Assembly: GCF_947036855.1 (NCBI RefSeq)
Contig: NZ_CAMQRY010000001.1
Location: 44,151-108,150, forward strand
Direction: 5' to 3'
From: an uncultured Clostridium sp.
GTDB taxonomy: Bacteria; Bacillota; Clostridia; Clostridiales; Clostridiaceae
Length of the DNA: 64,000 bases
Notes under the pieces: model-generated
Told to the model about the DNA's origin: nothing
Databases searched by the model: none
The model's input: only the letters and a program-made list of their open reading frames with translations
In this document: in pieces, positions 60,580 through 62,131 of the stretch
Layout: every line of letters starts with the position of its first letter
How positions within the stretch are numbered: the stretch's first letter is position 1
Translations under genes and position numbers: made by a program

Positions 60580-61206
60580 TTGAGATATTTGAAGAATATA
60601 TTGAAAAAGATACAATCAGTTTTAGCAGAGAATAGAATAATTTTTATGTGGATATTATTATTTTTCTTGATAGGAATAGTACTTGGCTGTTATACAGTTT
60701 ATTATATGAGTGATATAGGAAAGGTGGAGCTTGGAGGATATTTTAATGGTTTTTTAGGATTTATGAAAACAAGTGAAATAGATTATATGTCAATTTTAAT
60801 TAATAGTGCTAAAGGAATTATACCTATTATATTTATTATTATTGTTCTTGGGTATACATTAATTGGATTCCCTTTTGTACTTGTAATTAATTTAATTAAG
60901 GGTTATATACTTGGATTTACATTATCTTTAGTAATAACAGTTCTAGGGACAGGGGGAATAGGAATTATGTTTGCTACCCTTATAATACAAAATATTATTT
61001 TTGTTCCTATAATGATGCTGATAAGTGTATTATCTATGAAAGCCTCTATTATAAGGGTTAAGGCACTTAAGAATGAAGGAAGTAGAAGTGAGTTTAATGG
61101 TAAAGAGTATTTGATGGTACAAGGGATTTTAAGTGTAATAATTATACTTGGAATAGTTGTTGAAACATATATTTCACCTAATTTAGCAAAAATAGTAATT
61201 AGTTAG
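60580..61206 (+). CDS. spoIIM: Stage II sporulation protein M
   Basis: Multi-TM, FFLIGIVLGCYTVYYMSD...IVLGYTLIGFPFVLVINLIKGYILGFTLS. Confidence 0.88.
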   Translation: MRYLKNILKKIQSVLAENRIIFMWILLFFLIGIVLGCYTVYYMSDIGKVELGGYFNGFLGFMKTSEIDYMSILINSAKGIIPIIFIIIVLGYTLIGFPFVLVINLIKGYILGFTLSLVITVLGTGGIGIMFATLIIQNIIFVPIMMLISVLSMKASIIRVKALKNEGSRSEFNGKEYLMVQGILSVIIILGIVVETYISPNLAKIVIS

Positions 61207-61258: not shown

Positions 61259-62131
61259 ATGAGAGATTTGGTGAAAAAGTATGAGATTTACTTACAATCA
61301 ATTGGGAAGAGAAAAAATACAGTTAGTGCTTACATTACAGATGTGTCTATGTATTTAGATTTTGTTGAAGAAAAAAAATTAGTTGTTAATGAAGATGGGT
61401 ATCCACTTATGTCATATATTCAAAATCTTAATGACAAGAGCAAATCACCATCGTCTATTCAAAGAACTATAATTTCTTTGAGAAACTTTTACAATTTTTT
61501 AGTAGCTGAGGGAAATTTAAAACATGTTCCAGAAACTAGTATTAAAAGAGAGAGAGTTGAGAAAAAGAAACCTGTTGTTTTAAGTATTGATGAAATTAAT
61601 AAAATTATGAATACTACGAACATAAGTACAGAGAAGGGCGTAAGAGATAAAGCTTTACTTGAACTTATGTATGCGACAGGGATGAAGGTATCAGAACTTA
61701 TAGGACTAGATATAGATGATGTGAATCTTGAGTTATCATTTGTTAAGTGCAAGGATAATAGAGATTATGAAAGATTAATACCTATAGGAAGAGAAGCTAA
61801 GGATGCAATTAAGAAGTATGTTTCGCTTAGAGATGAGACAGTTAGAACTACTGAAAAATTATTTTTAAATATGAGTGGAGATCCTATAACAAGACAAGGT
61901 GTTTGGAGAATAGTAAAAGAATATTCTGTTCTTGCAAATATCAATAAAGATATTAATTTAAATACTTTCAGACATTCTTTTGCAGTTCATTTACTTCAAA
62001 ATGGAGCAAATGCAAAAGTTGTTCAAGAACTTTTAGGAAATCAAGTTATGACTTATATTGATATGTATTATGAAATTATTAATAATGAAAAAATAAATAC
62101 TATATATAAGAAAGCACATCCAAGAGCATAA
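61259..62131 (+). CDS. XerD-like tyrosine recombinase with altered catalytic residues
   Basis: SAM-like N-terminal domain plus integrase fold; ELMYATGMKVSELIGLD, LNTFRHSFAVHLLQNGANAKVVQELLGN, DMYYE. Confidence 0.9.
   Translation: MRDLVKKYEIYLQSIGKRKNTVSAYITDVSMYLDFVEEKKLVVNEDGYPLMSYIQNLNDKSKSPSSIQRTIISLRNFYNFLVAEGNLKHVPETSIKRERVEKKKPVVLSIDEINKIMNTTNISTEKGVRDKALLELMYATGMKVSELIGLDIDDVNLELSFVKCKDNRDYERLIPIGREAKDAIKKYVSLRDETVRTTEKLFLNMSGDPITRQGVWRIVKEYSVLANINKDINLNTFRHSFAVHLLQNGANAKVVQELLGNQVMTYIDMYYEIINNEKINTIYKKAHPRA

Follow-up and report, generated by a model that had tools for sequence, protein, structure and literature searches.

A pair of recombinases, XerC and XerD, is commonly treated as near-universal, with single-recombinase systems as the exceptions, and tyrosine recombinases require the residue set R-K-H-R-H/W-Y for DNA cleavage. 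The 64,000-nucleotide stretch of clostridial DNA analyzed here (the window) contains, next to spoIIM, a Xer-type gene whose product reads K-N-N-R-N-Y at these positions and does not match the set. A sequence-only reading of the window had taken it for a non-cleaving or altered Xer paralog, perhaps binding DNA or regulating a genuine XerC/XerD pair. The locus therefore raises the question of what such a protein is and does, and of where chromosome dimers would be resolved in an organism that carries it.

Identity and Active Site of the Altered Recombinase

Translation of positions 61259–62131 (+ strand, stop codon included) gives a reading frame that is intact, as had been stated earlier, is 290 aa long and has HPRA as its last residues. 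Its 5′ neighbor is spoIIM (60580–61206, + strand), which lay directly upstream of xerD at all of the 46 family loci examined and marks the orthologous xerD position, and its 3′ neighbor is a pyrimidine-nucleoside phosphorylase gene. The best-scoring profile is the XerD equivalog model TIGR02225, at 308.7 bits; this is under the curated cut-off of 329.6, which many family members with fewer residue losses pass. The tree groups the window protein with the XerDs of the order. Because of its conserved position, best model and tree placement, the protein is, by sequence comparison, the XerD ortholog and not an extra paralog. Structure prediction with 44 locus-derived relatives as input (mean pLDDT 87.7, pTM 0.64) gave an overall fold matching those of solved XerD, XerA and XerH. 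The integrase-family search found four genes in the window's own genome (the altered XerD, a XerC-like protein of 440 aa and two others) and no intact XerD, on which ground an extra paralog standing alongside an intact XerD was rejected. The two others are a complete Xer-like recombinase adjoining phage holin and amidase genes (L003, contig C39) and another Xer-like recombinase adjoining yebC (L004, contig C154); both are probably mobile-element integrases.

Residue equivalences were taken from an alignment to E. coli XerD, whose numbering is used for R148, K172, H244, R247, H270 and Y279. Four of these six catalytic residues are replaced in the window protein (R148K, K172N, H244N and H270N), while R247 and Y279 are kept. 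On the + strand, the Arg-I position is occupied by K143 (61685–61687, codon AAG), the first His by the Asn of N235-T-F-R238 (61961–61972; N235 is AAT, 61961–61963), in which R238 preserves Arg-II, and the second His by N261 (62039–62041); the nucleophile position is held by an invariant Tyr, Y270 (62066–62068). The earlier reading had identified these three losses, the second Arg and the downstream Tyr correctly, but its list was incomplete, missing the beta2-beta3 Lys (K172), where the window protein has N167 (61757–61759, codon AAT). The DNA-recognition helix starts with R212–W216 (RQGVW, 61892–61906), assigned by homology to R220/Q221 of E. coli XerD. A Lys at Arg-I has been studied in two relatives: Cre R173K gave no detectable cleavage adduct, junction or recombination product, and in Flp R191K recombination was practically nil, with cleavage still possible (PMC4499138). 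Since this substitution disables recombination in Cre and Flp and three further residues are lost, the window XerD is very likely unable to cut DNA; of the earlier proposal, the non-cleaving part thus appears sound and the paralog part does not.

Distribution and Selection of the Altered XerD

The altered XerD is present in 7 of 7 genomes of the window's genus, which includes Sarcina ventriculi, Clostridium mediterraneense and C. tarantellae, at 78–100% identity. The pattern K-N-N-R-N-Y (once with S at the second place) was read in all seven and at all sampled loci of genera g3 and g28, and this identity of pattern excludes a sequencing error, chance or a local pseudogene. Across the family, 175 of 208 genomes have a XerD match at 1e-30. 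Reading one to several XerD sequences per genus, we found Lys at Arg-I in all sampled family genera except g45, which has Arg. K172 is lost in nearly all family XerDs read (G158 and G201 have an aligned Lys), and most sequences have a basic residue next to the old position. At H244, Tyr, Phe or Asn is usual; at H270, most genera still have His, and g1, g3 and g28 have Asn. The two His positions are variable, with Y, F, N, T and L as replacements; R247 and Y279 are invariant. In the sister family f3, XerD reads RKHRHY or RTHRHY, and in the sister family f2 mostly R-HRHY, a two-residue deletion in the beta2-beta3 hairpin having removed the catalytic Lys (L131, L133–L138, L140–L142). The tree is consistent with residues being lost step by step in a vertically inherited gene, and the clade formed by g1, g3, g28 and g13 sits on a long branch (0.99, support 100/100). 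As judged from these alignments and the tree, the active site changed in stages throughout the clade and did not simply decay locally.

Within the genus, dN/dS is 0.04–0.10 for the pairs listed, and it is lowest in the C-terminal third, at 0.02–0.07 for residues 201–290, which include the HxxR, second His and Tyr positions. Invariant among 44 XerDs of the order are R212, Q213, G214 and W216 of the recognition helix, R238, H239, Y270 and the HPRA end. By these measures strong selection is keeping the altered XerD, as had been surmised from its intact reading frame.

Search for a Canonical dif Site

Across the phylum, the B. subtilis dif pattern matched 77 of 200 genomes and its reversed control matched 5; the consensus of these matches is ACKTCSKATAAT-N4-ATTATGTWAACT. 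In the order, the pattern matched 1 of the 42 genomes tested (41 of them of the family), with 12 for the control, and the consensus matched 47 of 227 genomes, fewer than the reversed control. The dif site that the sequence-only reading proposed to look for in the window's own genome yielded one candidate (C40:1610), which was rejected, having three mismatches and being accompanied by one control match in the same genome. These searches of the order detected no site that pairs a XerC arm with a XerD arm, as the dif of a XerCD system does. Such control-level matching is in line with the literature, where dif prediction did not succeed for C. perfringens and C. beijerinckii (PMC3025954).

A Palindromic Site beside the xerC-like Gene

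Of the intact XerC/XerD pair for which a search of the rest of the genome had also been suggested, half was found: the XerC-like protein of 440 aa has all six catalytic residues. RKHRHY was read in 20 of 20 aligned XerC-like sequences, those of XerD-less genomes included. Judged by model scores, the protein falls outside both the XerS and the XerC equivalog families (141 bits on the XerS model, against a cut-off of 267 bits). Its length varies in the family from ~314 to 482 aa (L001, L012–L018, L114–L126), partly because of an extension at the N terminus (~120 aa in the window's own genome) that matches no Pfam entry.

A palindrome around xerC-like, AACTTCGCTAAAT-N4-ATTTAGCGAAGTT and variants, was first found in the window's genus. 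The 28-bp palindrome ACTTCGCTAAA-N6-TTTAGCGAAGT, cut as 11-6-11 and here termed C/C, lies just upstream of xerC-like at 48 of 57 loci, mostly 15–166 bp from the reading frame. The window's own genome is among them, with a near-perfect palindrome of 28–30 bp on contig C41 (13939–13968, L313). Changes are paired between the arms, and most copies remain exact palindromes; the arm, ACTTCG..AA, resembles the one that XerC uses in dif, ACTTCSKATAA. In the 2.39 Mb of sequence on which its uniqueness per genome was judged, we found 51 distinct matches, nearly all adjoining xerC-like, and shuffled sequence (1.5 Mb) gave one weak match. The module of C/C and xerC-like lies at the GC-skew flip that marks the terminus in 10 of 10 closed genomes, and in C. 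mediterraneense the flip falls inside the 20 kb containing it. C/C also adjoins xerC-like in 14 of 15 genomes classed as XerD-less, a set that includes several drafts and two genomes, G184 and G198, that each have a weak XerD match. C/C is a candidate XerC-only dif of the Clostridiaceae, at which, by analogy with XerS at difSL, the XerC-like protein alone would probably resolve chromosome dimers.

A Second Palindrome Associated with XerD

Among the dif-consensus matches in the order we recognized a XerD-arm palindrome, AGTTTACATAAT-N4-ATTATGTAAACT. The corresponding site, AGTTTACATAA-N6-TTATGTAAACT, here termed D/D, is likewise 28 bp long and cut as 11-6-11, so that both palindromes are dif-sized, as if the arms of dif had parted and each had been doubled. 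We found D/D, in 1–5 copies each, in 77 of the 227 genomes searched from the order (6 for the control) and in 12 of the 200 from the whole phylum, 4 of which are dif variants. Outside g1, g3 and g28, it was found in 54 of 97 genomes with XerD vs. 3 of 32 without (p = 3e-6, relatedness ignored), and in genus g6 alone in 9 of 10 with XerD vs. 0 of 7 without. Together with the XerD-less genomes above, these genome comparisons show that D/D sites go with XerD and that C/C sites do not need it. Of the D/D sites read, 36 of 37 lie outside ORFs of at least 100 aa, and GC skew changes from plus to minus across D/D sites in 9 of 10 closed genomes, as at the terminus. Many genomes carry 2–5 copies, some of them 1–14 kb apart, which fits binding sites and not a recombination site. 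Because the catalytic residues are mostly lost, the recognition helix is kept and D/D vanishes with XerD, the clostridial XerD is best regarded as a terminus DNA-binding protein. A DNA-binding role, raised in the sequence-only reading, is thus supported as likely, and for the family at large it seems reasonably likely that XerD binds D/D.

The same claim is less secure for the window's genus. In its clade (g1, g3 and g28) no more than 14 of the 76 XerD-containing genomes have D/D; none was found in the window or elsewhere in its genome, and about 420 kb around the G001 terminus contained no convincing site. Candidates near xerC-like in G001 and G004 were withdrawn, being phosphofructokinase coding sequence. 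The long branch leading to this clade, together with the scarcity of D/D there, may mean that binding specificity has changed further. Some g3 genomes have an A+T-richer variant of D/D. In several Clostridium species of g3 (L194, L218, L223, L254), a D/D-type site is conserved between genes for an ABC-F ATPase and a TPR protein (about 437 and 267 aa), a setting judged from ORF sizes and two sequences read.

Proposed Explanation and Alternatives

On balance, we consider it likely that the XerD of the Clostridiaceae has turned into a non-cutting DNA-binding protein, with the XerC-like protein alone resolving dimers at C/C. XerD would no longer cleave but would still bind, probably in dimeric form, to half-sites of the XerD type close to the terminus. 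In a further step, which has less support, terminus-bound XerD would unload SMC rings. B. subtilis XerD is reported to unload SMC complexes at the terminus (Karaboja 2021, as cited in PMC12322038, PMC10945525, and PMC8242196), which by analogy makes this the most likely job for the clostridial protein to have retained; taken by itself, SMC unloading by clostridial XerD is possible but rather doubtful. The combined scheme, in which the Xer pair came apart into a XerC-only C/C system and D/D sites bound by a pseudo-recombinase XerD that organizes the terminus by SMC unloading, is offered somewhat tentatively.

Alternatively, XerD may be a silent partner in or beside the XerC-like synapse, with D/D sites near C/C serving as accessory elements that trigger the reaction or set its timing. 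In three f2 genomes D/D follows the 3′ end of xerC-like at a distance of 3–10 bp, and in G184, G182 and G022 it is no more than about 400 bp from C/C; the invariant HPRA end corresponds to the region of E. coli XerD that contacts the partner and FtsK. However, most D/D sites are far from xerC-like, only six of the searched xerC-like loci having one within about 2 kb, and C/C persists in genomes without XerD, so that we regard this explanation as unlikely. The suggestion that the protein regulates a genuine XerC/XerD pair is not supported: no intact XerD was found in the window's own genome, the intact partner is a single XerC-like protein, and that partner keeps its own site in genomes without any XerD. 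It would also be quite improbable, in our estimation, that C/C is a mere operator or RNA hairpin of xerC-like. Its position upstream of the gene is operator-like, but the same gene-adjacent layout is common to xerS/difSL (PMC5357621), most copies have no T run after the palindrome, and the dif layout of the site, the resemblance of its arm to the XerC arm and the location of the module at the terminus all argue against such a role.

The least probable alternative is that XerD remains active, perhaps slowly, through a rebuilt site made up of K143, the basic residue by the old Lys, Arg-II and the Tyr, with D/D as its own dif. Invariant Arg-II and Tyr are indeed a point against pure loss of catalysis, which does not demand them, and the basic residue after the old Lys position is present in most sequences. 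On the other side stand the non-functional Arg-I Lys of Cre and Flp (PMC4499138), the drift of both His positions, and the multiple, sometimes closely spaced D/D copies, between which recombination would delete or invert DNA. That D/D is simply a new dif is likewise unlikely for this family, given that it depends on XerD, that it has the copy numbers above and that C/C exists. The idea is still viable for f2, where D/D directly 3′ of xerC-like may still belong to a recombination module.

Relation to Known Xer Systems

The favored explanation, a non-cutting XerD beside a XerC-like protein acting alone, can be compared with several known systems. As in XerC/XerD-dif of E. coli and B. subtilis (CodV/RipX), there is a full-length XerD homolog at a conserved locus, a XerC-like partner, and 28-bp terminus sites with 11-bp arms and a 6-bp center; unlike there, the window XerD is without four catalytic residues and the sites are C/C and D/D palindromes rather than C/D arms. 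Reliance on one complete recombinase is shared with XerS/difSL of streptococci and lactococci, XerH/difH and archaeal XerA/dif. The xerS gene adjoins difSL at the terminus (PMC5357621), and features of such systems are seen here in the intact XerC-like protein and in a site linked to its gene (48/57 loci) and located at the terminus (10/10). However, C/C has a 6-bp center and is almost perfectly palindromic, unlike the 31-bp difSL with its 11-bp center; most genera retain a XerD relic, and the XerC-like protein scores far under the XerS cut-off. In many genera a chromosome has several XerD-type sites close to its terminus, which recalls the SMC-unloading XerD of B. subtilis, although no convincing D/D site was found in the window's genus and the B. 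subtilis protein also belongs to a working XerCD/dif system.

We found no earlier description of this arrangement in the open-access literature. Throughout this family the Xer pair appears to have given way to a XerC-only module while the altered partner was retained, with intermediates in sister families, and such a module could account for the unsuccessful dif predictions in C. perfringens and C. beijerinckii (PMC3025954). The family may also serve as a naturally occurring separation-of-function case, in which to ask whether a terminus role of XerD that does not involve recombination matters enough to be selected by itself. Outside the class, four genomes of the large-genome phylum family f28 (G241, G279, G312 and G406; L286–L289) had no match to the dif pattern and carry 2–3 D/D palindromes, which in three of these genomes lie within ~35 kb of one another; they are possibly another XDS-like case.
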